64,000 nt of DNA, taken from assembly GCA_947176755.1 (NCBI GenBank), contig CAMWRW010000001.1, forward strand, positions 1 through 64,000, written 5' to 3'. Of the stretch, positions 5,721 to 48,370 are shown piece after piece (the stretch's first letter is position 1; the number at the start of each line of letters is the position of its first letter). The notes beneath the pieces were generated by a model. That model made no database searches, was not told the DNA's origin, and saw only the letters and a program-made list of their open reading frames with translations. Source of the DNA: an uncultured Porphyromonadaceae bacterium (GTDB lineage Bacteria > Bacteroidota > Bacteroidia > Bacteroidales > Muribaculaceae). The position numbers and the translations under genes are program-made.

Positions 5721-5791
5721 AAAGGCTTCGCCATCGCGCTTCGACCTTTGGCCGACTTGCGCTTTATGCTTGCACGCGAATACATCGTATT

Positions 5792-5953
5792 TCATTTCTT
5801 TTTGCCAAATATAGAGTTAATTATTGCGTTGCCGATTTTTCTCTCAATGCCGTTGCGTGTTGTAGGGATTCCGGTGGCTTTTGCGAAATCCCGCTTCATC
5901 TTGGAAACGCCGAGAGCGCGTTTCCAAGAGAAGCTGAGACCGGGGATTTTCAT
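5792..5953 (-). CDS. 53-aa basic small protein (MKIPGLSFSWKRALGVSKMKRDFAKATGIPTTRNGIERKIGNAIINSIFGKKK)
   Basis: Complete ORF read directly between the VWA and TPR-retropepsin genes. It is absent from the ORF track because of its size. ATG at 5953, TGA at 5792-5794. Confidence 0.6.
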   Translation of the reverse strand: MKIPGLSFSWKRALGVSKMKRDFAKATGIPTTRNGIERKIGNAIINSIFGKKK

Positions 5954-5956
5954 AGT

Positions 5957-6787
5957 TTAGAAATCGAAATTATCGCGTTCCTTCTTATACGAGGCATAGA
6001 CCTCTTTCATTTCATCATCGTCACAGGCATCCATCAAGACATCAAAATTACGACGAGCCTTCATAGATCCCCTTGACATTACCGATGCTCTGAGGAGTTC
6101 GGCAGTCTTGTAGCCGGTGTGAAACGGCACACTGACACCATTCGTCATAAGTGACAATTCTTTGAACCAAGGAGCATCAGTGATTGTCACTGTGTCAATT
6201 TTTATCTTATTGTAAGCCGCTTTCCTTGCCTCAATTCGCCAGTCAATCTGGCTTCCGTTGATGATATCTCTGTATGAATAACCAACTTCATGGGGCACTG
6301 CATCAGCAATAAGAAGTATAGAACGAGTTGACCCCTCACGCCACTGAGTCTCTTCCACTATTTTCTTGATGACAAGCTCGTAAAACTCCGGCCAGTCACC
6401 GCCGGAAGTGTCCCTGGAATTGCGCACAAACTTGATAAGATCGTTCTCATTGTCAGTCGGATTTATACACTGGTATGCATCACCGAAATCCTGCGCATTA
6501 TTCATATCGCAATAATCACCGAAAGCGACGATACCCAATCGTAGGTCTTCATTGTCTTTGAAGAGTTGTGGTATCAGTTCAGACACCTCTTTGCGCACAG
6601 CACCAATATATTGCGCCATTGACCCGGTCGTGTCAAACGCTATTACCATATCGAGTTTCCCGATATTCTTAGGAGCTACTTGGGCGAAGCCTTCTTCATT
6701 TTTTACCTCTGAGGTCTTTGTTGATGATGTCATAGTGACTGTCTCTTCTACGGTCACAGTCTTTTTCTTTTTTCTGAAAAGTCCCAT
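5957..6787 (-). CDS. VWA domain-containing protein
   Basis: 'LDMVIAFDTTGSMAQYIGAVRKEVSELIPQL' MIDAS-like motif and VWA-type spacing. Confidence 0.88.
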   Translation of the reverse strand: MGLFRKKKKTVTVEETVTMTSSTKTSEVKNEEGFAQVAPKNIGKLDMVIAFDTTGSMAQYIGAVRKEVSELIPQLFKDNEDLRLGIVAFGDYCDMNNAQDFGDAYQCINPTDNENDLIKFVRNSRDTSGGDWPEFYELVIKKIVEETQWREGSTRSILLIADAVPHEVGYSYRDIINGSQIDWRIEARKAAYNKIKIDTVTITDAPWFKELSLMTNGVSVPFHTGYKTAELLRASVMSRGSMKARRNFDVLMDACDDDEMKEVYASYKKERDNFDF

Positions 6788-6873
6788 AAAAATTTATTAT
6801 TTGTATTAATGGTTGTAAATATCAATACCTGAATTTTGAAAAGGTAAAATCCCGCAAAACGAACATCAGAAAG

Positions 6874-7368
6874 TTAATCCCCCGTTGTTCTTATATTGGA
6901 TAGATCTTTGTATCGATTAGGGACTTGTGTAATGCAACTTGGATATAGCTCCAGAATAGTCCGTATAATTCGTGGATACATCGACTGAATATCCTCCGTG
7001 TTGAAGCCTTCAGCCTTAAGAAGCAGACTGAAACAATCCACATATATCAGAAGGTCTCCGAATATGATATTCTTCCGTCGGCTGAGATGATCCATGACAA
7101 CGGCCATCAGTCCACCTATATGTCGGTCAAGAGCAGTATCGGCTTCCTTTATTTTAGACATAGCGAGGAGTTGCATACGACAGTCAGCCATAAACTTATC
7201 AAGAGTTTCTCCCCTTATGGCAGCCATAAGGTCAACGGAACCTGATAATAATTCAGTCGGACAAAATTCACTCGTCGCGACTATACCATCTTGATAAGGC
7301 ACCTCCACTATATAAGTCTGTGGGTCACCTTGTACCTCTATATCAAAATTTAGTTTAAGATTTTCCAT
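6874..7368 (-). CDS. hypothetical protein
   Basis: Colinear ORF in the operon. Start likely MENLKLNFDIEV at 7368. No recognised motif. Confidence 0.65.
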   Translation of the reverse strand: MENLKLNFDIEVQGDPQTYIVEVPYQDGIVATSEFCPTELLSGSVDLMAAIRGETLDKFMADCRMQLLAMSKIKEADTALDRHIGGLMAVVMDHLSRRKNIIFGDLLIYVDCFSLLLKAEGFNTEDIQSMYPRIIRTILELYPSCITQVPNRYKDLSNIRTTGD

Positions 7369-7424
7369 ACTTGTATATTCTAAGTTACAAAGAAATACCA
7401 CGCAAGATGGAATGGTAAACAGTT

Positions 7425-8297
7425 CTATGGGAAAATCTCAATAGAAGGGTGCTGAAAGCTTTGGAAAATGCCGCGATTCATATAGGACTTTTCGCTAAAG
7501 CATTTTCGCCATTGGCTAAAGTCGGCATTGCTTTTAAGAAGAATTGAGATATAATACGAAAGAGAGCCATATATTTTTCCGCTTGGAGCTTTGTACTCAA
7601 TGTTGCGTTCGTTTTCCTGACATGCTGTAACAACTGTGAGAATTGCTCCTTTAGTAAATTCTTTTGGCGACTTGACGGTTATTCGCCCCGGAGGAGTAAA
7701 AGCATAATTAGTTCCACGAACATATCTGATAAGTTCGGGATCAATATCGGTCATTTCATCCTTCTGAATACCCTTGCTGTAACAAGCATCTACGGCGACA
7801 AAAAGCTCACCATCATTTCCCAACTTTCGCTTAATGGCATCAAGCAACGGACACAACTCATCATCAATCAGATGATATTGACCCGAGTAAGTACCATTCA
7901 TTTTACGACTGTCTCGGCACGCATCGTAAGGAATAATCGACTCATCATATTTTTTCAATGCCCCCTCATCATGATTATCATCACGAATTGGTTGCCCATG
8001 CCCTGAAAAATGGAAATACACCCTATCCCCCTCTTGACTTCTTTCTGCAAGCTGAATCAGAGCTTCTACAATTCTTGCTTTTGTTGCCTGTTCATTTATC
8101 AAAGTAGTAATATCGCCAAATCCTCTCTTCTTAAGCAAGGGTCGGAGTAACGCCACATCATTATCACCATGTAAGACATTCCAGCCTGTTTTCATCCGGT
8201 CGTATTTGCCGATGCCAACAAGCAACGCGCGATTAGTTGCCAACCCCGTCAAAACTGAGACTGACAACAGAAAGGTCACTATAAGGCGTTTAATCAT
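7425..8297 (-). CDS. exported metacaspase-like (peptidase C14) protein
   Basis: Signal peptide MIKRLIVTFLLSVSVLTGLA, then 'RALLVGIGKYD', 'VYFHFSGHGQ' (His) and 'LFVAVDACYSKG' (Cys). Start at 8297 overlaps the upstream stop (TAATG). Confidence 0.88.
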   Translation of the reverse strand: MIKRLIVTFLLSVSVLTGLATNRALLVGIGKYDRMKTGWNVLHGDNDVALLRPLLKKRGFGDITTLINEQATKARIVEALIQLAERSQEGDRVYFHFSGHGQPIRDDNHDEGALKKYDESIIPYDACRDSRKMNGTYSGQYHLIDDELCPLLDAIKRKLGNDGELFVAVDACYSKGIQKDEMTDIDPELIRYVRGTNYAFTPPGRITVKSPKEFTKGAILTVVTACQENERNIEYKAPSGKIYGSLSYYISILLKSNADFSQWRKCFSEKSYMNRGIFQSFQHPSIEIFP

Positions 8298-8938
8298 TAT
8301 TTCAACTGGTTTAGTATCTTCTGGCATTGAGCAACAAATTCTTCATCATCAGCAAAGCGAATTGACATCGCTATCAACATCTCTTTAGCTTTTTTTCGGT
8401 CATGGATCTTCAAGTAAGCCATTGCGAGACGCATTCCGGCATCTTCTTGAGCTTGTATGTCATCTGACGGGGCCATTTTGTAAGCTCGTTCAAGGGTTGG
8501 AATATCATCCGAAGTTATTGACTCCCAACCTCGGGTTGAATCCGGGATATAGTTATAAGCTACGATCGTATTGTCAAGTTGGTTCAGACCTGCCTGACGG
8601 ACATTGTAAACGGAGAATATTCCCAGAATAAGAATCGCAGCAATAGAAGCGCCCCATGCCATTCTCTCGCGGAGATGACTCAGGCGAAAAACACGAGGTT
8701 TCGAACTCCGCCCTATAATGCTCAGGAGCTCGTCCTTGGAGATATTCTTCATAGCATGACCGAACTCGATATTCTCCTGTTCGGCCTCCTGACATATCCC
8801 CCTTAGTGTAAAAAGATACACACGAAAGTCAGTTGCAAAACTTTTATCAGAGCGTAATTTATCATCGAAAGACAACTTCTCCTCAATACTTAGGTCATCA
8901 TTAATATATCGCTCAAAAAGTTCTATGTTATTTTCCAT
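8297..8938 (-). CDS. single-pass membrane anti-sigma-factor-like protein
   Basis: Overlaps the 3' end of the sigma gene. N-terminal 'LFERYINDDLSIEEKLSFDDKLRSDKSFATDF', one TM 'MAWGASIAAILILGIFSV', C-terminal extracytoplasmic helical region. No obvious zinc (HxxxCxxC) motif. Confidence 0.7.
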   Translation of the reverse strand: MENNIELFERYINDDLSIEEKLSFDDKLRSDKSFATDFRVYLFTLRGICQEAEQENIEFGHAMKNISKDELLSIIGRSSKPRVFRLSHLRERMAWGASIAAILILGIFSVYNVRQAGLNQLDNTIVAYNYIPDSTRGWESITSDDIPTLERAYKMAPSDDIQAQEDAGMRLAMAYLKIHDRKKAKEMLIAMSIRFADDEEFVAQCQKILNQLK

Positions 8939-9587
8939 TTCGTTTCTTCTTTTCAGGTTTTTCAGCTATAATACCGGCATTATAAAGAGCGAGTTTGACC
9001 CTATAGATCAAGTCACGCATACAGAGCCATCTTCGAGCCTTGATCGCCTTGGCATTATCCGCGAGTGATTTGCCATTATCTCGATATGGAGCAACTTCTT
9101 CGGCAATCTCGGCATCTGACATTCCGCTCAAATATGTCTTACGAATGATTGAAGCACAGGGTTCCGGCGTATGATCCAGTTCATCACCCAATAAAGCTTG
9201 TGCCTCCGGATCATTATATAGCTCGGGCTCACCGTCCTGTGAGGGTAACTCTTTAAGTAGATCATTAATCTTTTGGGCCCTTGCCGATAGTTTATCACCA
9301 TCCTCCGGATTAGCTTCATCTAAGGAATCATGCCTTCCTATCATCCGGTATTTCTTACTTGCCATATTAAGACCGATACGAATTATATAATTGCTCCAGT
9401 CCCAATTTGTGCCAATCCGTCCTTCTTCAATATTCTGATGAATTGCAATGAAAACATCTTGATAGATATTTTCCGCATCGGCAAGGCGCATGTTGGTTTT
9501 CTTATATTTATCCATGAGAATGTCCGTGAAGTTGCCCCGCAACCTCATGTACCATTTCTGCACGATTTCTTCGTATGTTTCTGCCAT
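8928..9587 (-). CDS. ECF-type RNA polymerase sigma-70 family factor
   Basis: 'DAENIYQDVFIAIHQNIEEGRIG...WSNYIIRIGLNMASKKYR' (region 2-like). C-terminal 'TYLSGMSDAEIAEEVAPYRD...KAIKARRWLCMRDLIYRVK' (region 4-like). Confidence 0.75.
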   Translation of the reverse strand: MAETYEEIVQKWYMRLRGNFTDILMDKYKKTNMRLADAENIYQDVFIAIHQNIEEGRIGTNWDWSNYIIRIGLNMASKKYRMIGRHDSLDEANPEDGDKLSARAQKINDLLKELPSQDGEPELYNDPEAQALLGDELDHTPEPCASIIRKTYLSGMSDAEIAEEVAPYRDNGKSLADNAKAIKARRWLCMRDLIYRVKLALYNAGIIAEKPEKKKRNGK

Positions 9588-9602
9588 ATTATTGCATCTA
9601 CA

Positions 9603-12600
9603 TTATTCGATTAGTATAAAAGACGACCATATCTCAGGCTTGTCCGGCTGCTCACGTCTGATCCACTGCTGGGCACTCTGAAACGAATCATAAATATTAT
9701 TACCATGAGCTGCTTTTTCGTAAAAAGCATCCATAAACTGGGCGGTCCAATAGTCATCCACTTTTGTAAGTGTGCAAATGAGATTCTTAGTCCCGGCGAT
9801 ACGGAATGCACGTTGCAAACCCCAGACACCTTCGTTATCAATTTCTCCCAAACCGCTTTCACATGTTGAAAGTACCGTAAGATTGAGTTTCGGGAATGAT
9901 AAGAGTTCAATTTCTTCAGCTGTCAATAAATCATCATTCTCATCAAGAATATAAGGACTTTGCCACGAGATATTACCTTGTCTAAGGACTATCCCGCCGA
10001 CTTCTGTCAAACCTCCTGATAAGAACCGTCGTGCGACATGGTAATCTTCATTTGATGAATCTAAAGCAGCCTGAGAAAGTGTTTCATAATTCCGATAAAA
10101 GCCATGCGAGGAGAAATGTAAAGTTGAGACTTCATCTCCGGATAGTCCCGATACATTCCGTTCGGTTGCTTGATTATTCAAAAGAATGGTAAGCTTATCG
10201 CGATTTATATTTTTACTTATCAACTCTATTTCATACTCAACATTTGGAAGGTCAGTCCAATTCCCTCTGTCTGCCGGATCTCCGTCATTTATAGGTGAAT
10301 TATGGTCAGATACACCCACCACAACTACATTATTTCCGATCTCGCATGCGCCCCTATCTATCTCTGAAAGATGAAAAACTCTATGGAATTTAATTTGCTT
10401 ATAGTAGGGTAAGCCATTCGGACATAAATATTCCACCCCCAATCTATTCAACACGCCATCAGGACAGAAATATAGGTTTTCATAACCGTCAATGTAATCC
10501 GGCAACCACCTCCAGACAATTCTCGGATTAGAGAGAATATCCTCCTCCGTCCCAATCCGCACAAATTCTTTCATTCCATTCCTGTCAATCAGGAAAGCAC
10601 CATAGCTGATGCTTTTACCTACCGAATATTTCACAAACTCAACAGCAAAATCTTTATAAGATAATCGTTGTGCCACTTGTGCCAATGTTCGATCAAGTTC
10701 AGAGTAAAGTTTCTTCTCCGAAGACAATCTATTTCCAAGTTCGCGTTCCAATCTGAAAACATTGGCAGTCAACTCAGGAATATGAACGGAATCGTTGAAT
10801 GCTACAGCATTGTTTAATTCTTGTCTGACATGTTGGAGTTGGTTGACAACTTTCTTTGACGACCTCTTAATAGCGAGTTTTCTTTCAATCGTTTTCTTTT
10901 TTGTGTATAATAGGCCTTTGCGGAACAGACCTAGCTGAAGTGCAATCTCATAAGCCTCTTTAGACAATGCTCCGTCTATCATATTTGATAGGGGGATACT
11001 TAATGCTCGTTCTTCACCCCCGGAGAGTGTTAACAACCCGCCAATCATAGCAACCTTCACAATAGGAATCAGTTCATTCATTCGATTGATATACTCTTCC
11101 TGATTAAGATTATCACGAGCGATGGCTTCAGACTGTTGTATGATGCTTAGTTTCCGCAGTGGATTCAATGGCCAACTAAGAGCATCGTCGGCAGTATGTA
11201 GTGCATCTTGCCATTTATCAGAGTGCATCAAATAGGCTATTTCTGTCTTTGCCATCTCATAAGCATCCCGGGCATGTTCGGGTGCCTCTGCTAAGATTGA
11301 AAATTCCTTATAGAGGTTTTCAATATCCACTTCTGTAGTTGATTGTGGGCAAGCCAATTGAATAATACTACATAGGATTTTGGAATATTCCCCATGATAC
11401 GTCCCATAAGACTGTCTCACAATCTCCAATTGCCGGTCAAGTAATTGTAACGACTCATCCCTTTGGTCAAGCAAATACAAATTTGAAGCAAACTGACGAT
11501 TAAAACTAATCTTTCGGAGATCGGCAGCTGCAAGTTTCTGATAGTATTGATGGGCAGTCCGAAAAAGTCTATCGGCCTCCTTATAATCAAAGGTTGAAGA
11601 AGTAAAGGCAGCTAATTCAGAATAAGCCATACCCTTGCCTACATCAGAACAACCATATTGACGCGTATAATTCATTGCTTTTTCAATGGAGACTCTTTGT
11701 AGATAAGAATTATGTGTCAGAACCTTAGCCTTCCGACAAAAGTGTCTGATTTTTCGTTCTAAATCCATTGAGCCGGAATCCAAGTATCTTTCAGCAGAAT
11801 CATAATAATACAATGCAGTTGAAGAATCGGAAAAACTATATATGTAGCCCAGATTGTCGTGCCATACGAACTTTTCAAAAGGAGTGCATAGTATATCTTT
11901 CTCCTTCATGAAGATTTCTACCGCATCTTCTGTTCGTCCCATTTCTCCTAATGTACAAGCCTTATTAAGTCGCATTGATGAAATCGCGCGTTCGTCAGTT
12001 GAATACGTTATGGCAAAGTCATAGTGACGTATCGCTTCCTCATATCTGCCAAGATTTGAAAGTCCCAACGCCCAATAGTTATGCAACGTATTAAGGCTCT
12101 TTCCGGACACCTTCGGGGAAAGTCTTTCACACGCATCCACTAACTCTTGGAATCTCGATTGACTAAAGTATAAATTCACCAATCGCATAATGCGAGGTGT
12201 CAGATCTACTTCGGTCCCGATTGAGATTATTGAGTCTATCTGATGCTTATTGACATTAACATCAAATGATAATATTTCGTTATAAGTTTTGGCTACCGCA
12301 AGACTATCAACTTTGAGCGTAGGGTTCTTGTATTCCAAATACCCATTCCCGTTTTTGTAAAAATCCTCAAAGCAGACGTCCCATAGTCTATAAATTATGT
12401 CAAGAATATCCTTCCTGTCAGCATCCACACAGCGCTGAATGAAGCCTCTTCGGGAATATCCATTCAACAGTTCAAGACGACCACCGCCCTTATGATAAGC
12501 CGTCAACAATTCTCGATAGGTTGTAAGAGCACAATCCGTCGGCATATCATCAAGGAAGGAATCCAAGAAATCGACAAAAGACCGTTTGAAATCCCATTTC

Positions 12601-13115
12601 AGGGAATCTGACCACTCGAACTTAATCGGTGTATACCAACTGTTTTTATCCTTCTTAGTCTTTAACTTTCCCTTTTCAGTCAGAGAGGTTGAAGCATTCA
12701 GTCCGATTGAGGAATAGTTGAAAAAGTAAGAGAAGAATCCGGGAGGCATAGACGACTCCGCGAATTGTTCACTAAATTTCTTTGCTTTCTTAAAATCGTG
12801 TTTTACAAACTCGTAATAAGATAAGGCGTAGGCAGTGTTTAAGAAATGACTTACAGTATCGCGACGGATTATCTTCGTAGGAAAACTCTTAATTCTGCTT
12901 TCAATATGTTTCCGAGCCTCTTTCGTCAGTTTATAGTCAGGTTGAACAAACTCAACCATTTCAATAATGAGACTGTCCCGATGAGAAATAATCTCCTTTT
13001 TAGCTTCCGGCTTATGGAAGTTCATAGAATGGCCGAAACCGTGGAATCCGACAAGGAACACCACGGCAACTACTATCTGCGTTAAAAAACAGCGATGTAT
13101 TTCTGCCAATTTCAT
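9603..13115 (-). CDS. exported TPR-CHAT domain protease
   Basis: N-terminal signal/TM segment, TPR-rich middle, C-terminal CHAT domain with 'VSTLHFSSHGFY' (His) and 'LTVLSTCESGLGEIDNEGVWGLQRAFRIAG' (Cys). Confidence 0.93.
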   Translation of the reverse strand: MKLAEIHRCFLTQIVVAVVFLVGFHGFGHSMNFHKPEAKKEIISHRDSLIIEMVEFVQPDYKLTKEARKHIESRIKSFPTKIIRRDTVSHFLNTAYALSYYEFVKHDFKKAKKFSEQFAESSMPPGFFSYFFNYSSIGLNASTSLTEKGKLKTKKDKNSWYTPIKFEWSDSLKWDFKRSFVDFLDSFLDDMPTDCALTTYRELLTAYHKGGGRLELLNGYSRRGFIQRCVDADRKDILDIIYRLWDVCFEDFYKNGNGYLEYKNPTLKVDSLAVAKTYNEILSFDVNVNKHQIDSIISIGTEVDLTPRIMRLVNLYFSQSRFQELVDACERLSPKVSGKSLNTLHNYWALGLSNLGRYEEAIRHYDFAITYSTDERAISSMRLNKACTLGEMGRTEDAVEIFMKEKDILCTPFEKFVWHDNLGYIYSFSDSSTALYYYDSAERYLDSGSMDLERKIRHFCRKAKVLTHNSYLQRVSIEKAMNYTRQYGCSDVGKGMAYSELAAFTSSTFDYKEADRLFRTAHQYYQKLAAADLRKISFNRQFASNLYLLDQRDESLQLLDRQLEIVRQSYGTYHGEYSKILCSIIQLACPQSTTEVDIENLYKEFSILAEAPEHARDAYEMAKTEIAYLMHSDKWQDALHTADDALSWPLNPLRKLSIIQQSEAIARDNLNQEEYINRMNELIPIVKVAMIGGLLTLSGGEERALSIPLSNMIDGALSKEAYEIALQLGLFRKGLLYTKKKTIERKLAIKRSSKKVVNQLQHVRQELNNAVAFNDSVHIPELTANVFRLERELGNRLSSEKKLYSELDRTLAQVAQRLSYKDFAVEFVKYSVGKSISYGAFLIDRNGMKEFVRIGTEEDILSNPRIVWRWLPDYIDGYENLYFCPDGVLNRLGVEYLCPNGLPYYKQIKFHRVFHLSEIDRGACEIGNNVVVVGVSDHNSPINDGDPADRGNWTDLPNVEYEIELISKNINRDKLTILLNNQATERNVSGLSGDEVSTLHFSSHGFYRNYETLSQAALDSSNEDYHVARRFLSGGLTEVGGIVLRQGNISWQSPYILDENDDLLTAEEIELLSFPKLNLTVLSTCESGLGEIDNEGVWGLQRAFRIAGTKNLICTLTKVDDYWTAQFMDAFYEKAAHGNNIYDSFQSAQQWIRREQPDKPEIWSSFILIE

Positions 13116-13139
13116 TGATACATAAGTAAAACTTAAAAA

Positions 13140-13514
13140 TCAAGTTCGTGATATGAGGAGGTATATTAAAACTCCGTACACCACTAACGGACCTAAGACA
13201 CAAATTATTACTGAGTTTAATACATAATTACCTCCCCAACGATTGAACCAATTTAGAAAATCAACCGAATCTTGAAAAGCCCAATCACACCACTCTCGAA
13301 AGGTGTGTCGGGTGGCAATGAAAATTCCCAACCATGTAAACAACAAAGCTGCCGTTGAGTAAGGTTTATGTATCAAACAATCCAACATAATCGTCCACGA
13401 AAATGGAATCAGAAGATAGTAAAACACGATATTGACTTCATTGTAAGTCAATCCGGTCTTGCGACCTATCCATAATAATGAGTTGGCCACTATAGCGAAA
13501 GTCTGTCGCATCAT
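13140..13514 (-). CDS. hypothetical integral membrane protein
   Basis: 124 aa with several hydrophobic segments, colinear with the operon. Confidence 0.65.
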   Translation of the reverse strand: MMRQTFAIVANSLLWIGRKTGLTYNEVNIVFYYLLIPFSWTIMLDCLIHKPYSTAALLFTWLGIFIATRHTFREWCDWAFQDSVDFLNWFNRWGGNYVLNSVIICVLGPLVVYGVLIYLLISRT

Positions 13515-13543
13515 TCAATCAAATACTATCATTCCACAGCCTA

Positions 13544-14125
13544 TTACTTATTCTTATTCTTTTTCTTAATCTTCTCTACAATTGGCTTTGCAAAAGCATA
13601 TGCCTTACTTAATAATTGTATGATACTGCCTATAATAAGGCCTGCTATAACCATACAAAGGCTAGCCCCAAAGATCTGCCAGCAATACCACAGAAAGCCT
13701 TTTTTTAAATTAAATACATGCATAAGCCGAGTATCGTAATTGTTTGCATCGGGAGGATAGACTCTATACATTATCCAGGTATCGTTATTTTTCAGATTCC
13801 TTAATGTGAGGGTATTCATCGACATCTGCTCTATCACGAACCTTCCTTTTCCACCCGATTCAATGTCCTGCTTGTAAAGATTCAATGTATCTTTATGCAA
13901 TTTCCATGTTCCTGCGATAGTGTTGATTTCCGTTCCATCAGTACTATACGTCGTTTGCGTCATTACATCGTTAGCTAAAAATAATTTGATATACTCGTCA
14001 GCATAGGGCATCGACTGCCATTCCCCCTTAACTGTCTTTTCCTCTATTCCCAATTGCTCACACGACATAAGGATTAGAGAGAGGAATCCAATAACAATAA
14101 TATGAAGTAGTTTACTGATTCTCAT
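13544..14125 (-). CDS. hypothetical lipoprotein with C-terminal TM segment
   Basis: Lipobox-like 'GFLSLILMSCEQ'. Lipocalin-like 'VKGEWQSMPYADEYIKLFLANDV...GTWKLHKDTLNLYK'. C-terminal TM. Confidence 0.7.
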   Translation of the reverse strand: MRISKLLHIIVIGFLSLILMSCEQLGIEEKTVKGEWQSMPYADEYIKLFLANDVMTQTTYSTDGTEINTIAGTWKLHKDTLNLYKQDIESGGKGRFVIEQMSMNTLTLRNLKNNDTWIMYRVYPPDANNYDTRLMHVFNLKKGFLWYCWQIFGASLCMVIAGLIIGSIIQLLSKAYAFAKPIVEKIKKKNKNK

Positions 14126-14148
14126 TTTTTAATTTGATTACAAAATCA

Positions 14149-15495
14149 TTACCATAATGACATCTTAGGTTTATTTTGAGAGGATGGATCTTTTATGCCT
14201 TTTAGAAAATTTTTAGCATCCTCATTACCGTCATCAGCCGCATTGCGGATCCACAATAGACCGATTCGTTTGTCCTGCTTCACACCAATACCCTCATAAT
14301 AGAATATACCCAACCGATATTCAGCCGGGCTATAATGCTGTGATGCTGAGGACTTGTATAATTCAAAAGCCTTGCTATCATCCCGAGCTAAATGTTGTCC
14401 CATCTCATACATTAACCCCAACTTATACTGACTATCCGAATAACAGCTGTCAAGAGCCAATTCACGAATTGTTTTAAGCCCACGCTCAACGTTCTTCTTG
14501 GTAGTAATTTTGTTGAGACAAATCTCAGCTATGTTCTTTTTTGCATCTATATAACCATGGTCCGCAGCTTTAGTGTACCATTCAAGGGCCTTGTAAAAAT
14601 CCGTTTCAGTACCGTAGCCATTAAAGTAACAATATGCAAGATTCCGCTGAGCTACTGCTAATCCCTGATTGGCAGCTTTCGTATACCATTCCACTGCCTT
14701 GCTCAGATTCTTCTCAACTCCCTTTCCATTGTAATAACAGATGGCGAGATTAAACTGAGCGTTTGATTCACCTTGCTCGGCAGCTTTCGTATACCATTCC
14801 ACTGCCTTGCTCAGATCCTTCTCGACTCCTTCTCCATTGTAATAACAGATGGCGAGATTAAACTGAGCGATTGCATTACCTTGTCCGGCAGCTTTCGCAT
14901 ACCATTCCACTGCCTTGCTCAGATTCTTCTCAACTCCTTCTCCCCTGTAGTAACAGGTGGCGAGATTCCGCTGAGCTACTGCATCACCTTGTTCGGCAGC
15001 TTTCGCATACCATTCCACAGCCTTGCTCGGATTCTTCTCAACACCTATACCCAAGTTATATTGAATTCCAAGCCCATTCATGGCGAAAGGAATCCCCTTT
15101 TCCGCTCCTTGTTGAAAGAGATGGAAACTCTTCTTCCAATCCTTTTCGCAACCTTTGCCATTGGCATAAAGATAGCCTACTACTGATTGAATAGCACCTG
15201 TGGTATCATTTTGGTTCTCTTGAATCCACCCTTTTAGAAAGGTAGTACTGATGGAGTCCCTCAGAATCTTTCTAACAGAATCTCCGCTAATTCGATTGGC
15301 TTTGAAATCCTGCATGGCTCTAAGAAATACCTCTTCAGTTATAATTCTGGTCTTTATTGAATTATCATTACTCTCGATCTCAGTAATCTCCGGAGCACCA
15401 TTCTCTTTAGCTTTATCATCATTCTTGACTGTACATCCTACCATAAAGGGGATCAATAAGAACCAAATTACAATATACTTCATTTCAATCTTCAT
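14149..15495 (-). CDS. Sel1-repeat lipoprotein
   Basis: Lipobox 'FLLIPFMVGCTV'; tandem 36-aa Sel1 units 'AVEWYAKAAEQGDAVAQRNLATCYYRGEGVEKNLSK'. Confidence 0.92.
   Translation of the reverse strand: MKIEMKYIVIWFLLIPFMVGCTVKNDDKAKENGAPEITEIESNDNSIKTRIITEEVFLRAMQDFKANRISGDSVRKILRDSISTTFLKGWIQENQNDTTGAIQSVVGYLYANGKGCEKDWKKSFHLFQQGAEKGIPFAMNGLGIQYNLGIGVEKNPSKAVEWYAKAAEQGDAVAQRNLATCYYRGEGVEKNLSKAVEWYAKAAGQGNAIAQFNLAICYYNGEGVEKDLSKAVEWYTKAAEQGESNAQFNLAICYYNGKGVEKNLSKAVEWYTKAANQGLAVAQRNLAYCYFNGYGTETDFYKALEWYTKAADHGYIDAKKNIAEICLNKITTKKNVERGLKTIRELALDSCYSDSQYKLGLMYEMGQHLARDDSKAFELYKSSASQHYSPAEYRLGIFYYEGIGVKQDKRIGLLWIRNAADDGNEDAKNFLKGIKDPSSQNKPKMSLW
14671..15030 (-). repeat. 108-bp tandem repeat encoding near-identical Sel1 units
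   Basis: 'ggcagctttcg(t/c)ataccattccac(t/a)gccttgctc(a/g)gat' recurs at about 14671, 14779, 14887 and 14995, exactly 108 bp apart. Confidence 0.9.
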
Positions 15496-15557
15496 CTAAA
15501 GACCAATTATTCCTTTCATGTATAATACTATAAAACTCTCATCTGCATAACACCTGA

Positions 15558-16634
15558 TTATTTCTGATCAAGCAGGTTATGCAGTTTGTTGATTCTGACA
15601 CCATAGTTGAAACTTTGGGTATTGCTCAGGCCAGCATTATTTACCGCGACAAGCTCACCTCTCGAATTCACAACAGGCGCTCCACTGCTTCCCGGAAGTG
15701 CCGGTATCGAATACATCAGGCGCGAAGGCTGCTTCTGACTTATATTTCCTTGATTTATCTGAGCCATCAGACCTTCGGAGGTGAGAGCCAAGGAAGGGCC
15801 GAGATTGAAACCGAGAAGATACAACTGCTCATTCTTATCTTTTTGAATCCGCTTAATGATGTCTTCATAGAACGAATAGTTTTCAAGAGGATCTTTTGAT
15901 GGTATGGGGAAGACATATTTCCCAAGTGGAGTAGCCTTATCTTTTAATTGGAGCACGGCAAGATCGTTCTCTTCATCCTCCTTAGTTACGACACATGGCG
16001 TGAAGTCAGAATCATTGGTGATATGAGTATCATTATATGCCACACTAACCACAGTCACCCCCGACACGTCAAAGCGAGCAGGGTCAATTGCCGCCAGGTC
16101 TCTATAGCGTTGTCTATGCTCTTCCATCTGTTCTTCTAAAGCCGAAATGAAAAGTTGATTTTCCCAGTCATCTTCCCAATTATATGAATAGAGTCCATCA
16201 TACAGTTCCTCCTGTCGAATGTTCAACTGCCAAAGCAACTCCGACATTTGATTATACTCATCGTTAAGCGCACTCTTTCCGTAATCGATCGCTGCCCTTA
16301 TCACATTCCTGACTTCCTCCTCATTTGTTTTGGAGGTTATCACATGATGGGCCGTTACTATTTCTCCCTTGTCAGACACGAAGAATCCTGAACCATAAGC
16401 GGTAGATGATATAATGGAATCTGCACTGGAGGTGACGTTTGCCAATGATCCATCACTCTCCAGCCCCGTGAAATACATTTTCTCTCCGTTTGGGAAAGTC
16501 AATACCTGGTATCGTTCCACTTTTATCAGCACCAATCCGGACTTCATTTCGCTATATATCTCTTCCGAATTCCTAATGCATGAGATAAGGGACAAAGACA
16601 ACAAGCATAAAACACATATTTTTAATCCGGCCAT
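15558..16634 (-). CDS. trypsin-like serine protease lipoprotein
   Basis: Lipobox 'LLSLSLISCIR'; 'GEIVTAHHVIT' (His), 'EENDLAVLQL' (Asp), 'PALPGSSGAPVVN' (Ser). Confidence 0.85.
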   Translation of the reverse strand: MAGLKICVLCLLSLSLISCIRNSEEIYSEMKSGLVLIKVERYQVLTFPNGEKMYFTGLESDGSLANVTSSADSIISSTAYGSGFFVSDKGEIVTAHHVITSKTNEEEVRNVIRAAIDYGKSALNDEYNQMSELLWQLNIRQEELYDGLYSYNWEDDWENQLFISALEEQMEEHRQRYRDLAAIDPARFDVSGVTVVSVAYNDTHITNDSDFTPCVVTKEDEENDLAVLQLKDKATPLGKYVFPIPSKDPLENYSFYEDIIKRIQKDKNEQLYLLGFNLGPSLALTSEGLMAQINQGNISQKQPSRLMYSIPALPGSSGAPVVNSRGELVAVNNAGLSNTQSFNYGVRINKLHNLLDQK

Positions 16635-37622: not shown

Positions 37623-37669
37623 TGATAATAAAATTTTTCTTCCATTCGTTAAATCATAAAAGGATTAAA

Positions 37670-38464
37670 ATGAATCTCCCGTTTCCTCATATCTCCGACC
37701 ACAAGACATATCCCTCGACTTTTCTGTTTGCAGTAGAATGGAGAATCCATTTCAATATGGTCAGGAACGTTCAAAACTACCCTTTCTTCCGGGATTTTAT
37801 CAAAACTACGTTTGGAATAGAGTTAGGATTGGAGAATTTTCTTTCCATGAGTATCATTCCTCTCAAGTATACTCGGATGAATGAGAAAGTAAAGGTTAAA
37901 TTCACCGACAATTTCGCGGAATTCAAATTTGAAGCAGACGGTTATTCATCTTTTCAGGATTCTATTTCACCATTGCTAAAGCCTTTTTTAGAAATGTTGA
38001 AAAAAATCAATTCCGAGGTTTTTGATATGGTATGTAATAAAAAGAATCTCCTAATGATCAGACGGTCTGAACCCGGCGACGAGAAAGAACTTTTCGCCGG
38101 AATTTTCAGCAAAGAATTATTGTCTTATCCATCCTATCTGCTAAAAAAGGCGGAATTGGAAGAGGATCAGAAACCATCCGCTCGACTTATCGACATCTCA
38201 AATTCAGGCAATTCACTTCAGATTGTTTACGGAGCTTACTTCAAAAAGAGAGATGAGAAAATCCGACCTGAAACAGGACAATTTCTCCTCTATGATTACG
38301 GCCTGATGATGGAGTCTCAGATGAAATATAGACTACAGACAAATCAGGCGGGAAATTACATAGAAACCGCGCAGGAGATGAATAATTATATGTATGACTT
38401 ATTCCGGTGGGCTTTTAATACAGACGTATATAAAGCAATGGAATCAAAACCGATAGAAGTATGA
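37670..38464 (+). CDS. unknown protein (possibly TIGR04255-like)
   Basis: 264 aa from MNLPFPHISDHKTYPS (37670). ATGA overlap with the next gene. The pattern of beta-rich N-terminus and 'LLYDYGLMMESQ...MNNYMYDLFRWAFNTDVYKAME' is only suggestive. Confidence 0.6.
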   Translation: MNLPFPHISDHKTYPSTFLFAVEWRIHFNMVRNVQNYPFFRDFIKTTFGIELGLENFLSMSIIPLKYTRMNEKVKVKFTDNFAEFKFEADGYSSFQDSISPLLKPFLEMLKKINSEVFDMVCNKKNLLMIRRSEPGDEKELFAGIFSKELLSYPSYLLKKAELEEDQKPSARLIDISNSGNSLQIVYGAYFKKRDEKIRPETGQFLLYDYGLMMESQMKYRLQTNQAGNYIETAQEMNNYMYDLFRWAFNTDVYKAMESKPIEV

Positions 38465-38982
38465 TTTCAGCAGCCGTAGCATATCCCGCTTGGGAGGAAT
38501 CAACCGCCATCGCAATAGTGCGCCCGCAGCCTGCACATGAATTGGATGGAAACTTTTTCACCTTCCTTAAACAGTCGGAATCCAACGGCGAGCCCCTATG
38601 CTGGATTGACCGTCTGGGATTCTCACTTGAAAAGAAAGCCAAAGAGGTAAAAAAATTTACATTTTTAAGAAACTGGCAAATTCGTCATATCGAACGCGCC
38701 ACGCCTGCAATGCTCTCTATGATACTCAAAATGGAAGCTGCCCTATCTCCTGAAATTGAAAAATTCGATTTTGGAGAAATCATGGAGAATCATAATACTT
38801 ACGTTTCATTAATTCTGTCAGAATCCCTTCGTATCAACCTGAACGTTTATGATGGGGATTTCTCCACTTTTTACCTGACCTATTATTCAATGGGAAAACC
38901 GGTGCGTCAAGATTTGTTGGATTTTAATGAAACAATTGAAGCCTTTAGAGCTGTTCGTAACGCCCTTAACAATCGGCAATAA
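38461..38982 (+). CDS. unknown protein
   Basis: 173 aa, translationally coupled to the upstream gene (ATGA). Confidence 0.65.
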   Translation: MISAAVAYPAWEESTAIAIVRPQPAHELDGNFFTFLKQSESNGEPLCWIDRLGFSLEKKAKEVKKFTFLRNWQIRHIERATPAMLSMILKMEAALSPEIEKFDFGEIMENHNTYVSLILSESLRINLNVYDGDFSTFYLTYYSMGKPVRQDLLDFNETIEAFRAVRNALNNRQ

Positions 38983-38996
38983 TCAGTTTTTATAAA

Positions 38997-39815
38997 ATGC
39001 TCCCTTATCCGAAAGAGATTCTACCTTCTATAAAGTATAAACGATCCTTTGAGATTTCCAATCTTGAAAAAGATAAACATTACTTTCTCCACAGAAGATC
39101 TGAACTTGAAAGGTCAGAATGTTTTTACGACGGTATTGAAGATATCGTTCATTTAAAACCTGGTGCAATCACCCACTTGCTGAATTTATCTGTCAACATC
39201 GTGGGAGGTAAATTTGTGCCCGGAAGGCATGCTTTATGGGTTCAGAAAAATGGAGGAGAACTGGATTGGGAAGAAGAGGAAATCATCATTGACAATTTTA
39301 AGGATAAATACATATTGCTTAAAGGCGACTTTCCTCAATTTTGGTTTTGTATTAAAGACTTGCAGGGAGTCTCTCTGAAATATCCCAGAACATTCAATAA
39401 GGAAACTGATGCCGAAGGTTATGCTGTTATCAAGCCATCCGAGACTGAACTCGCCGAGAATGGCGATTTAAAGAAAATTAATGAGGACATTGATTTACTC
39501 AACAATCTTTTTGAAAATTCAGGGAAAGAACCTGATAATAAAAAGAAGAAGAAAGCCAAAATTAAGAAGAATGTTGAGTTTCTCACTAAAGGAAGAATCC
39601 AGGTTGAGCATAGACCAACAAAATTAAATTATTGGCATTGTCAAGTATATACGGAAACGCAATTGGCAAACGGCTCATTCGAGAGAACACCGGAGAAAAA
39701 GAAAGCACAATGGATTGTTGACATTCTGCACGCACTTGATGAAAAGTTAAGGCTTTCACTTCTCTTGCAATGTCCTGCATATACAGAAATATCCCCTCAA
39801 GTTTACATGAAGTAA
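38997..39815 (+). CDS. unknown protein
   Basis: 272 aa with a lysine-rich linker 'EPDNKKKKKAKIKKN'; starts 14 nt after the previous stop. Confidence 0.7.
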   Translation: MLPYPKEILPSIKYKRSFEISNLEKDKHYFLHRRSELERSECFYDGIEDIVHLKPGAITHLLNLSVNIVGGKFVPGRHALWVQKNGGELDWEEEEIIIDNFKDKYILLKGDFPQFWFCIKDLQGVSLKYPRTFNKETDAEGYAVIKPSETELAENGDLKKINEDIDLLNNLFENSGKEPDNKKKKKAKIKKNVEFLTKGRIQVEHRPTKLNYWHCQVYTETQLANGSFERTPEKKKAQWIVDILHALDEKLRLSLLLQCPAYTEISPQVYMK

Positions 39816-44036: not shown

Positions 44037-44381
44037 TCAGGGATTGGTTTGACTATCCTTGGCGTAGACATAAACCCAACAGGAATCTTTTCTCCCCCCG
44101 TTATCGGGACGTGCGCCGACATCAAATCCACGCGAATCCATAACCTTCTCAACTTCCCCCGCTTGAGCTCGACTCAAGGTTTTTACCTCCGCGATATTTT
44201 CAGAACTGTGGTCGTTTTCACGTCTGTCGCAGTTGTTGGTAATTCCACAGTAATAATCGTCGGGATTAAAGTCCTTTCCTTTTCTCTTCGAATCTTCTCT
44301 CGCTTCATTTTCCAAATAATCAGCCACTTGATCGGCTGTCACTTTGATGGTCTTGCCACCTTTTAATTTAAAATTCACCAT
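44037..44381 (-). CDS. small GIY-YIG-like protein
   Basis: 'DDYYCGITNNCDRRENDHSSENI' resembles Y-x-G-I-T-(x)n-R-R-x-x-x-H; C-terminal 'CWVYVYAK'. Confidence 0.5.
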   Translation of the reverse strand: MVNFKLKGGKTIKVTADQVADYLENEAREDSKRKGKDFNPDDYYCGITNNCDRRENDHSSENIAEVKTLSRAQAGEVEKVMDSRGFDVGARPDNGGRKDSCWVYVYAKDSQTNP

Positions 44382-44562: not shown

Positions 44563-44700
44563 CGATGCGATTTTATGATGTTCGACGCGCTGATTACTTT
44601 TTTCAGTGCGTTGATTACTTTTTTCGGCGCGGACGCGATTATACTATGTTCGGCGCGTTTATTACTGCTTTCGGCGCGGACGCGATTAATCGCGTCCCTA
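44563..44700. repeat. REP-like direct repeat, left copy, ending in a perfect 20-bp palindrome
   Basis: 'gatgcgattttatgatgttcgacgcgctgattactttttt...ggcgcggacgcgattaatcgcgtccctac'; palindrome GGACGCGATTAATCGCGTCC at 44678-44697. Confidence 0.85.
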
Positions 44701-44738
44701 CTGGGATGGCCGTTTCCGTTGTTCGACCCGATTTTCAA

Positions 44739-45290
44739 TTAAACAGGCGTGTGTCCGGCAGAAGTTTGCGCTTTTTCGCTTGCTATTATTTTGTTCGCTT
44801 CTTTACGCCATTTCCCGAATTTGTCTTTCAACTTGTTTTCGTCAATTTCTCCTGACCGGAATTTTTTCGCTAACATTTTCAATAAGTCTTGCTCGGAAAT
44901 GACTTTTATCCTATTCACATCCTCTGACTTTATGATCGCGTGAATGTAGGATGCAAGCTGACCCATATCGCTAATTGTATGGAGCATGAAATTTTTATGC
45001 CTCTGCTTCTGGCTGTCGAACCCTGTCACTCCATCCTGCGCCTCCAAAGGCACGTTCCATCCATATTGCGCTTCTATCTCTTCTCTACGCAAAAGAACAA
45101 AACATAATTCTTCTAATTTATCTTTGGTAAGTGCTGTCGCAAGAGCCATATCACTTAGATTGGAGAGATCTTCATCCACTTCCCAAACCGATAGCTCATG
45201 ATTGGATGTGACAAGGTCGGAGACTGAGTCTGAATCTCCATCAGGACGCCCGTTCCATCTCTTTATGTCAATTTTCCTCAGATAATACAT
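44739..45290 (-). CDS. unknown protein (third gene of a three-gene cassette)
   Basis: 183 aa; overlaps the 3' end of the upstream gene by 23 nt. Confidence 0.7.
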   Translation of the reverse strand: MYYLRKIDIKRWNGRPDGDSDSVSDLVTSNHELSVWEVDEDLSNLSDMALATALTKDKLEELCFVLLRREEIEAQYGWNVPLEAQDGVTGFDSQKQRHKNFMLHTISDMGQLASYIHAIIKSEDVNRIKVISEQDLLKMLAKKFRSGEIDENKLKDKFGKWRKEANKIIASEKAQTSAGHTPV

Positions 45291-46014
45291 ATTTCTGCTC
45301 GAGGCTTTTCAACACGGCATCATATTGAAGGCGGACAAGAAAGGATTCGGGGCGTGTCAGTTTCGTCATCAGATTGTAGACCTCACGCGTTGCCCAATGA
45401 TCAAATATTGAAATCACGGCCGACTTCACCTCATCTCCTTCAAGCGCCATGGCCGAAGTGACAATCAATATGCCATAGTCGGCGATCTCTTCATAATCAA
45501 ACGTGCGGAGCAGGTTGAGCAGCTTTACAACCGGACGCGGATCCCGGTCTGCACGGCAAAGCAATTTTCGCTGCACTCTCCCCAACAATGCTAAACTTCC
45601 CGGTCGGTTTTCTTCATACAGCGAATGTAACCAGTGTTCCAATATTTCATCACTTCCAAAATCTAACAATCGAAGAAATTCTGATATATGCTGGTCGGCG
45701 AATTCCTCTCCCTCTTTTCTAATGCTTTCTTTGGGGGTTGCATATTGGTCTGTGTCAGATTCAAAATCTATATCACTCTCGGGTTTCAGCGGTTTTCTCC
45801 CGATTTCTCGGATAATATACTGATTGTTCTTAAAAGATCTGTAAGAATCCAATAAATCGGAGATATAGAATTCATCCGGGACTTCAAATATACTTGACCG
45901 AAATCGGCGCGATTTTACATGCTCGCTGCTGATAGACTCCCCTCCCCTCTTCTCTTCATATAGAATCTCAAAGGATGGAGTCTTAATCATAGTCTCCTTA
46001 TCATATATGGTCAT
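45268..46014 (-). CDS. unknown protein (second gene of a three-gene cassette)
   Basis: 248 aa, one nt after the first gene. Confidence 0.7.
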   Translation of the reverse strand: MTIYDKETMIKTPSFEILYEEKRGGESISSEHVKSRRFRSSIFEVPDEFYISDLLDSYRSFKNNQYIIREIGRKPLKPESDIDFESDTDQYATPKESIRKEGEEFADQHISEFLRLLDFGSDEILEHWLHSLYEENRPGSLALLGRVQRKLLCRADRDPRPVVKLLNLLRTFDYEEIADYGILIVTSAMALEGDEVKSAVISIFDHWATREVYNLMTKLTRPESFLVRLQYDAVLKSLEQKYVLSEEN

Positions 46015-46015
46015 C

Positions 46016-46681
46016 CTATTCCTCGATTATTGAAATTGCCTTGGAGATGAACAAGGGAATAAGTCCCGTCACATTTTCTATCGGTTCGCCAGGAATTGAA
46101 TTTATATCATATTCTGTCGTACATACCAATCCGGACTCCGCATGAGATACACGGATTGATTTCACATTATTCATCTCACATTCTTTTTCTCCCTCGGCAG
46201 AGGTTAATGGCTCGACACGGGCCACTCTCCTGCTATATTCCCTAACTGACCTATCGCTGAATTCTTCCCGTGGAATTCCTAAGCGGGGCAGGTCCTCTTC
46301 ATATATTGATCTGTGCGTCCGGCTGCCTACGGCTACTCTCGAAAATCCTTCGGGATTATTCTCAAATATAATCTCTATCAGTTTATCAATGGTCTCTTTA
46401 AATTTCGACCATTCTTCCTCTCCTTTTAAAATTATGTCGATTCGTTCGGATGTGACCGACACTGTGATGTGATTAGGGGAGGTAGCGATAAAATCTACGG
46501 TCATCACCTCTTTCTGCTCAACTCTTTTTTCCGCACCAATCACTTTGAGCTTGATTGCCGGAGACACGGAAGGTAATAGTCCGAGTTTCATCATGGGATC
46601 AAAATATCCTATGATGGCTTCATTACTTAAATCTTTATCTATCAATGGGAAGAGAGTGATTCTTTTTGTGTCTTTGTTCAT
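46016..46681 (-). CDS. unknown protein, possibly TIGR04255-like (first gene of a three-gene cassette)
   Basis: 221 aa; own promoter upstream. Family resemblance is weak and judged by eye. Confidence 0.65.
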   Translation of the reverse strand: MNKDTKRITLFPLIDKDLSNEAIIGYFDPMMKLGLLPSVSPAIKLKVIGAEKRVEQKEVMTVDFIATSPNHITVSVTSERIDIILKGEEEWSKFKETIDKLIEIIFENNPEGFSRVAVGSRTHRSIYEEDLPRLGIPREEFSDRSVREYSRRVARVEPLTSAEGEKECEMNNVKSIRVSHAESGLVCTTEYDINSIPGEPIENVTGLIPLFISKAISIIEE

Positions 46682-46719
46682 GGAGTCTGCTGAGGAAAGG
46701 TAGAACTTTTATTTTTACG

Positions 46720-46749
46720 CAAATATATTGCTTTCTGTTTATATAACAA
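46720..46749 (-). promoter_or_regulatory. promoter of the three-gene cassette
   Basis: Minus strand TTG (46749-46747) - N19 - TATATTTG (46727-46720). Confidence 0.7.
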
Positions 46750-46838
46750 CTATTTTCGCTATTTATTTTGATTTCTTCGTTTCCGCTTGCTAACCCGAAT
46801 GGGTGTTGTGGACGCGTTTGATTACTGTTTTCGGCACG

Positions 46839-47014
46839 GACGCGATTTTATGATGTTCGACGCGCTGATTACTTTTTATGGTGCGTTGATTATCGTTTTC
46901 GGCGCGTTGATTACTTTTTCGGCGCGTTGATTACTTTTTCGGCGCGGACGCGATTTTACTATGTTCGGTGCGTTGATTACTTTTCCGGCGCGGACGCGAT
47001 TAATCGCGTCCCTA
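46839..47014. repeat. REP-like direct repeat, right copy, expanded by 20-bp tandem units
   Basis: 'gacgcgattttatgatgttcgacgcgctgattacttttta', then repeats of 'ggcgcgttgattactttttc', then 'ggcgcggacgcgattaatcgcgtccctac'; palindrome at 46992-47011. Confidence 0.88.
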
Positions 47015-47156
47015 CCGAGTCGGTGCAATCGGGGTTCGGCGGTTTTGATGTCGGCGCGATCGGGGTCGAATAGGATTTGCGCAAGTCTCCTATTTTTCGT
47101 AATTTTGCCAATTGTTGATATCCCCGGATTTCCTAATCTTTTTCTATGTTTAAGCG

Positions 47157-48370
47157 ATGAAAATTGGTATTCTTAAAGAAACTAAATCTCCTGTAGATAA
47201 CCGCGTGGCTCTTACGCCTCTCCAAATTCGCAATCTCCGGTCGATTTATCCTAATCTGGATTTTTTCGTCCAACCCTCTCCGACTCGCGCTTTCTCTGAC
47301 CGCGAATATGCCGATTTGGGTATCCCCGTCGCTGAAAATATGGAAGAATGCGATGTGCTCCTCGGTATTAAAGAGGCCAACCCCGATACTCTTATCCCCG
47401 GTAAACATTATTTCTTCTTCGGCCACGTTGCAAAAATGCAACTCTATAACAAGCCTTTGCTCCGAGAAATGGTGAATAAACATCTCACTTTTTCAGACTG
47501 GGAGTATCTTGTTGATAATCAGGGGGGAGATTGGTAGCCTTCGGTTGGTATGCCGGAGTTGTCGGTGTTTATTACACTCTGCGCGGCTGGGGAATGCGCA
47601 CGGGAACGGCCCTGCTGCCCGAGCCTCACATTGACTTCTCCAAGGAAGAGATTATTGACCATCTGAGGAATGCACGACTTGCCCCTGCCAAAATCCTTCT
47701 CACCGGAAACGGGCGTGTATCACAAGGAGCACAATATGTGCTCGACCGTATTGGAGCCCGGAAAGTTTCCGTCAAGGAATATCTTGAAATTTCCAGTCCG
47801 ACGGGCCTTGTATATACCGTGGCCGGACCGGCCGAACTCGTAAAGCCTTCCGACCCGTCGGCTGAATTCGACCATGAGGAGTTTGTTGCCGCTCCTGAGA
47901 AGTATGTCTCAGACTTTGAAAAATTTGCCGACACCACCGACATCCTTATCACTGGCCACTTCTGGTCGCCCGACCAGCCGGTCTATCTCACAAAGGAACT
48001 CTGCACCCGCCCCGAATTCAGAATCCGAATGATCGGCGACATCACATGCGACATCGAAGGATCAATCAAATCCACAATCCGATCATCGACTCACGCCTCT
48101 CCCTTCTACGACTATAATCCACTGACGGGCGCGGAAGAAGCCCCCTTTACCTCGGCTGACAACATCACAGTCATGGCGGTCGACACATGCCCGAACGCAC
48201 TCCCCCGCGAGACAAGTGAGTTTTTCGGCGACAAATTTATAGCTACCGTCCTCCCCGACCTTATCACGCGCGGGATGGAGTCTGAGATTGTCAACCGCTC
48301 CTCAATCGTGGTCGATGGGAAAATAAACTCTCCTTTCAGCTATCTTGAAAACTATCTCAAATCAAACTGA
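47157..48370 (+). pseudogene. alanine dehydrogenase/saccharopine dehydrogenase-family gene split by a frameshift
   Basis: 47157-47537 encodes 'MKIGILKETKSPVDNRVALTPLQIRNL...DNQGGDW*'. The next frame resumes '..GGRLVAFGWYAGVVGVYYTLRGWGMRTG...'. The break is at the G6 run 47522-47527. Confidence 0.85.

Follow-up and report, generated by a model that had tools for sequence, protein, structure and literature searches.

What do three tightly coupled genes, bracketed by long repeats in an uncultured Porphyromonadaceae genome, do together, and are the repeats what carries them from place to place? They lie in the window, the stretch of 64,000 nucleotides analysed here, where the first-pass annotation described a minus-strand trio with its own promoter and read the repeat geometry as that of a discrete mobile cassette. 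The features concerned are the following.

ca. 44563-44701, minus strand: REP array downstream of gene C, with GTAG and the palindrome at its minus-strand start
44739-45290, minus strand: gene C, ORF of 183 aa
45268-46014, minus strand: gene B, ORF of 248 aa
46016-46681, minus strand: gene A, first of the operon, ORF of 221 aa
46720-46749, minus strand: promoter-like TTG-N19-TATATTTG upstream of gene A, read from the sequence
ca. 46807-47015, minus strand: REP array upstream of gene A, in the same orientation, with the GTAG-tagged palindrome on the minus strand

The three ORFs and their tight coupling are as originally described, with a 1-nt gap between A and B and a 23-nt overlap between B and C. 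The proposed promoter is likewise present upstream of gene A, and we take it to be compatible with the Bacteroidetes TAnnTTTG -7 element. The base composition of the trio is ordinary (42.8%), 30% of segments of equal size being equally low. The genes are rare in their own family: gene C occurs in 2 of 397 genomes and gene B in 1 of 297.

Homology of the A-B-C module

Used alone, window B or C finds no match among phages and viral contigs. The sole route to all further relatives is one distant C homologue in the congener G238, detected among 397 family genomes. This homologue, too, is the third of three adjacent genes, preceded in its polysaccharide locus by a nucleotide-sugar dehydrogenase and a PIN-like ORF. 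A genome-contig scan with one gamma-proteobacterial C returned no match. Profiles built from foreign trios, free of any window sequence (25 A, 28 B and 29 C proteins), were run against all window ORFs of at least 100 aa, and each selects its own counterpart: gene A at E=6.3e-6 (next window ORF 3.8), gene B at E=7.8e-11 (next 10) and gene C at E=2.2e-22 (next 11). By BLAST, window B also aligns with the B protein of a Klebsiella plasmid (34.5% over 84 aa, E 1.8e-8). With three profile matches, the order A-B-C and close coupling, the window trio is a member of an A-B-C module.

The order A-B-C is found in every locus with enough DNA, A being undetected only in L071, and the A/B and B/C spacing is mostly between -35 and +20 nt. 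Median pairwise identity is 18.6% for A, 17.8% for B and 27.6% for C. The pairwise distance matrices of the three proteins are correlated (Mantel r 0.76-0.81, reached by 0 of 5000 permutations), a correlation that measures co-inheritance and is not proof of physical contact. Three coupled genes held at 18-28% median identity across phyla, phages, plasmids and chromosomes are likely to be selected as a unit.

Window A, B and C are without a match above cut-off in Pfam, NCBIfam and PADLOC 2.0.0, and for the trio proteins of the relatives Pfam and NCBIfam give nothing except TIGR04255 in two A proteins. The annotated trio records examined are labelled as hypothetical proteins, and a literature search on the trio accessions and on TIGR04255 found no reports.

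The three proteins

Gene C is the most conserved of the three, with the invariant residues R5, W12, D21, T28, S34, W36 and H98. Window C matches phrog_10743 at E=2.1e-9 over residues 2-160, most of its length, and the C protein of G238 does so at 2.5e-14. The structural model of window C (pLDDT 91) has no match at E<=0.001 among PDB and viral folds. Gene A is fast-changing, as is B in its N-terminal part; the C-terminal segment of B is conserved and looks helical-repeat-like. For gene A (model pLDDT 86), AdoMetDC, phosphoglucomutase and helix-grip fold candidates were dropped at TM <=0.29. TIGR04255 matches 2 of 20 A members, the best at 3.7e-33, with no match in window A. One such A protein appears from its sequence to sit in the trio of L073, and at L073:3141-6516 an Hsp70/actin-like ATPase gene stands directly ahead of the TIGR04255-B-C genes.

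No member of the module is more divergent than the window copy, which has a C end branch of 4.06 and may therefore have changed role. A C tree that joins the window and G238 copies in one clade is not rejected (p 0.29), and transfer between the two is thus not proved.

In some phages it is C that is lost. Matches to C occur in 12 Acinetobacter phage records, 8 of which retain only approximately its first 52 residues, and in B1251 the C ORF is reduced to 61 aa beside intact A and B genes. If C is the component that carries the cost, such loss of C with A and B kept is to be expected. In Acinetobacter phages such as JX403940.1 (41175-41360), C is cut after 52 residues and its 3' part is replaced, with A and B intact.

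Distribution across phages, plasmids and chromosomes

Sought beyond its own family, the trio is found in phages, in plasmids and in unrelated phyla. Its carriers include Acinetobacter temperate phages and small plasmids (4-8 kb) of Klebsiella, Enterobacter and Acinetobacter. It is present in 42 viral contigs, around 26 of which are near-identical Acinetobacter copies in a set skewed to phages by construction, and in 14 chromosomes or MAGs, among them Pseudomonadota, Bacteroidota, Spirochaetota, Planctomycetota, Victivallales, a Lachnospiraceae and a Deltaproteobacterium (taxa as labelled in the records). This horizontal spread, together with the rarity of the genes in their own family, upholds the mobile character proposed for the cassette; the part of that proposal in which the repeats define or move it is not supported, as set out below.

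In E. coli the trios lie in P2-like prophages, with the replication endonuclease gene on one side and the portal gene on the other (the gpA-gpQ slot). The E. coli trio of strain N61 consists of WP_032235580, WP_000240425 and WP_000221711. The same P2-like slot, between replication endonuclease and portal, holds the trio in Pantoea (L080) and in another host (L060); these two copies belong to different C clades, a difference that implies separate arrivals. In P2 this slot carries old and tin, and across E. coli it shows 1,650 different arrangements, several of which have been proven to act in defence (PMC9122126). It is also home to 4 of 21 systems recovered by a functional screen (PMC9519451). 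The window copy itself is not within a P2 prophage.

Outside this slot the settings vary, and at unannotated loci the neighbour labels are a reading of the ORFs. On a 4375-bp Klebsiella plasmid the trio is the main non-plasmid cargo. It occupies an accessory region in lambdoid-type prophages, lies near the endolysin in Acinetobacter phages, adjoins integrases in L053 and L067, and sits within a mobilisable element in L072. In L073 it stands beside AbiE-like genes and a helicase, in L009 next to a PIN toxin-like ORF and in L020 next to RelB/YafQ. In L076, L077 and L079 it is alone amid housekeeping genes on chromosomes, not in defence islands.

Function of the module

Homology, gene order, junctions, co-inheritance, mobile-element context and position in the P2 tin/old hotspot are direct observations. 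Read with them, the window trio is probably a divergent copy of a horizontally moving A-B-C module that would most likely protect its host and the resident element against other phages. The best reading, drawn from sequence comparison, is an uncatalogued three-component anti-phage module of abortive or toxin-antitoxin-like type, with C as the probable effector. The bolder statement, that this is an undescribed anti-phage immune system spanning several phyla, repeatedly lodged at the P2 tin/old hotspot, carried also by minimal plasmids and armed with an effector C for whose fold no PDB counterpart was found, is put forward tentatively, as a possibility somewhat short of probable. Against a defensive role count the stand-alone chromosomal copies in L076, L077 and L079 outside defence islands, the lack of a PADLOC 2.0.0 match, and the folds of A and C, which match nothing informative in the PDB. 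The phage bias of the viral-contig set and the high divergence of the window copy weigh on the same side.

As a mechanism, A, B and C may form one complex, in which A, as the fast-changing partner, would sense or bind a cue of infection together with the variable part of B; A and B would thus have sensor or adaptor roles. C would then be an effector kept inactive until infection, and active C would arrest growth or phage production, probably in an abortive or toxin-antitoxin-like manner.

The reading that survives best beside this one takes the trio as a three-component toxin-antitoxin (addiction) unit which mainly stabilises plasmids and prophages, with phage defence as a secondary effect. 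It draws on the trio being the main cargo of tiny plasmids, on the other toxin-antitoxin genes that adjoin it in L009, L020 and L073, and on those phages that drop C and keep A and B. We regard it as unlikely, however, since stand-alone chromosomal copies exist, no toxin or antitoxin model of Pfam, NCBIfam or PADLOC matches, and the P2 slot favours defence. It is yet harder to credit a role in lysogenic conversion or phage physiology apart from immunity, in which the trio would for example change host metabolism or aid the carrier phage. Such a role would suit the copies that lie close to the endolysin of Acinetobacter phages and those in the accessory region of the lambdoid-type prophages, but there are plasmid and chromosome copies without phage genes nearby, and unrelated phage types carry the trio in accessory slots.

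The E. coli P2-like prophage copies and the 4.4-kb Klebsiella plasmid open the function of the trio to direct test with laboratory strains and standard phages.

The flanking repeats

The same-orientation repeats and their common palindrome are real. The two arrays share 126 alignable bp at 88% identity, with a flank-to-flank alignment score of 174, where shuffled sequences reach no more than 27, and the palindrome GGACGCGATTAATCGCGTCC occurs exactly at 44678-44697 and 46992-47011, a spacing of 2314 bp. On the minus strand both arrays have GTAG first and then a perfect hairpin, for which the RNA form gives approximately -13 to -16 kcal/mol. This combination of tag and hairpin characterises the GTAG-tagged REP elements (PMC3733652), and the flanking palindromes have both the tag beside a short hairpin and dispersal in the genome.

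The source genome searched for repeats is a 2.27-Mb assembly in 97 contigs, with a gene content suggestive of a gut Bacteroidales, and GGACGCGATTAATCGCGTCC has two further sites elsewhere in it. Approximately 15 palindrome copies are present genome-wide (<=2 mismatches to a degenerate core), at least 7 of which are grouped on contig C90. The long array occurs only at the two flanks of the trio, and the rest of the genome shares only the 26-30 bp REP core. Among 61 congeneric genomes, 16 carry the GTAG-palindrome. One of these, G320, has 57 forward and 54 reverse GTAG-REP matches, with 0 for a reversed control pattern; its total of more than 100 is far above that of all other congeners examined, and a recent REP expansion in this genome is likely.

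A RAYT gene had been suggested as something to look for, and a RAYT-like ORF of 188 aa with the HUH motif PNHIHFV does lie among the REP cluster of contig C90 (L010:1379-1945, minus strand), with REPs around and inside it. Profile support for this ORF is weak: there is no Y1_Tnp match, and the comparison with the TnpA-REP structure 4er8 reaches only E=0.21. Two REP palindromes are in frame within its coding sequence. Adjoining the left REP array of the window is a 114-aa ORF (44037-44381, minus strand) whose weak GIY-YIG match, E 0.0047, is below cut-off.

That the trio is a REP-bounded cassette, moved or deleted via its flanking repeats, is very improbable despite the long same-orientation arrays at both ends, found nowhere else in the genome, and the RAYT-like gene, since the 500-bp flanks of the 25 other trio loci show no repeats above chance (0/25) and congeners carry REPs without the trio; as a general mechanism, REP-bounded movement is largely refuted. 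For the same reasons the flanking REPs are local decoration and do not define a cassette: they are best read as ordinary RAYT-type repeats settled in two intergenic gaps. The outcome that the first-pass annotation named as refuting its view, repeats spread through genomes apart from the cassette, is in substance what is observed, given GTAG-REPs in congeners that lack the trio. Locally, deletion of the trio by recombination between the flanking arrays is possible. In an empty-site comparison, the dehydrogenase gene that flanks the trio has a DNA match in 0 of 60 congeners, and at the protein level only alanine-dehydrogenase-like paralogues are found; no relative is close enough for the comparison to inform, and neither an empty site nor a repeat-repeat junction was found.

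Other features of the window

An alanine-dehydrogenase/transhydrogenase-like gene (47157-48370, plus strand) lies in two frames near a G run, a split that is either a frameshift or an assembly error. A second three-gene set is located at 37667-39815 (plus strand; 265, 173 and 272 aa) in a polysaccharide locus and is without database matches. Considered as a possible relative of the module, it was rejected, being unrelated to A, B or C in a profile search. Further away, at 3672-16634 (minus strand), a run of genes reads as TPR/retropepsin-like, VWA, caspase-like, sigma factor, CHAT-like and trypsin-like, and looks like a conflict or signalling locus.

Comparison with known systems

The GTAG REP/RAYT elements (PMC3733652, PMC8266576) share with the window palindrome a GTAG ahead of it on one strand and clustering around a RAYT-like gene. 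They account for the repeats of the window, not for the trio.

Among defence systems, the exotoxin-A-like/SecB-chaperone system (PMC9519451) is also a three-gene operon, from a prophage-rich E. coli defence set. In the trio, no SecB-like or ADP-ribosyltransferase/exotoxin-like match is found with Pfam, NCBIfam, PADLOC or the PDB. The SecB-associated three-gene system is presumably CmdTAC or PD-T4-9.

A likeness in position is offered by 3HP (Rst_3HP), described as a P2-hotspot system of three genes that have no predicted domains and are active against P1 (PMC9122126). The E. coli trios share with it the P2-like prophage slot and three genes without known domains. Searched without a positive control, the window, Klebsiella, Acinetobacter and E. 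coli trios match no PADLOC 2.0.0 family at E<=10, and the module is missed by that release. Users of PADLOC 2.0.0 report 3HP calls (PMC10855318), which places 3HP in the release; the trio is therefore not filed under 3HP, and its identification as 3HP was set aside, with the same reservation as to the control. It could stand under another name in a later DefenseFinder or in the DefensePredictor validation set (PMC13092281).

Two family entries touch the module itself. The PHROGs v4 entry matched by gene C, phrog_10743, is a single-gene entry without an assigned function and with no mention of an A-B-C module. TIGR04255, a sporadically distributed NCBIfam family, is not matched by window A or by most A proteins, yet at least one trio has a member of it as its A protein.
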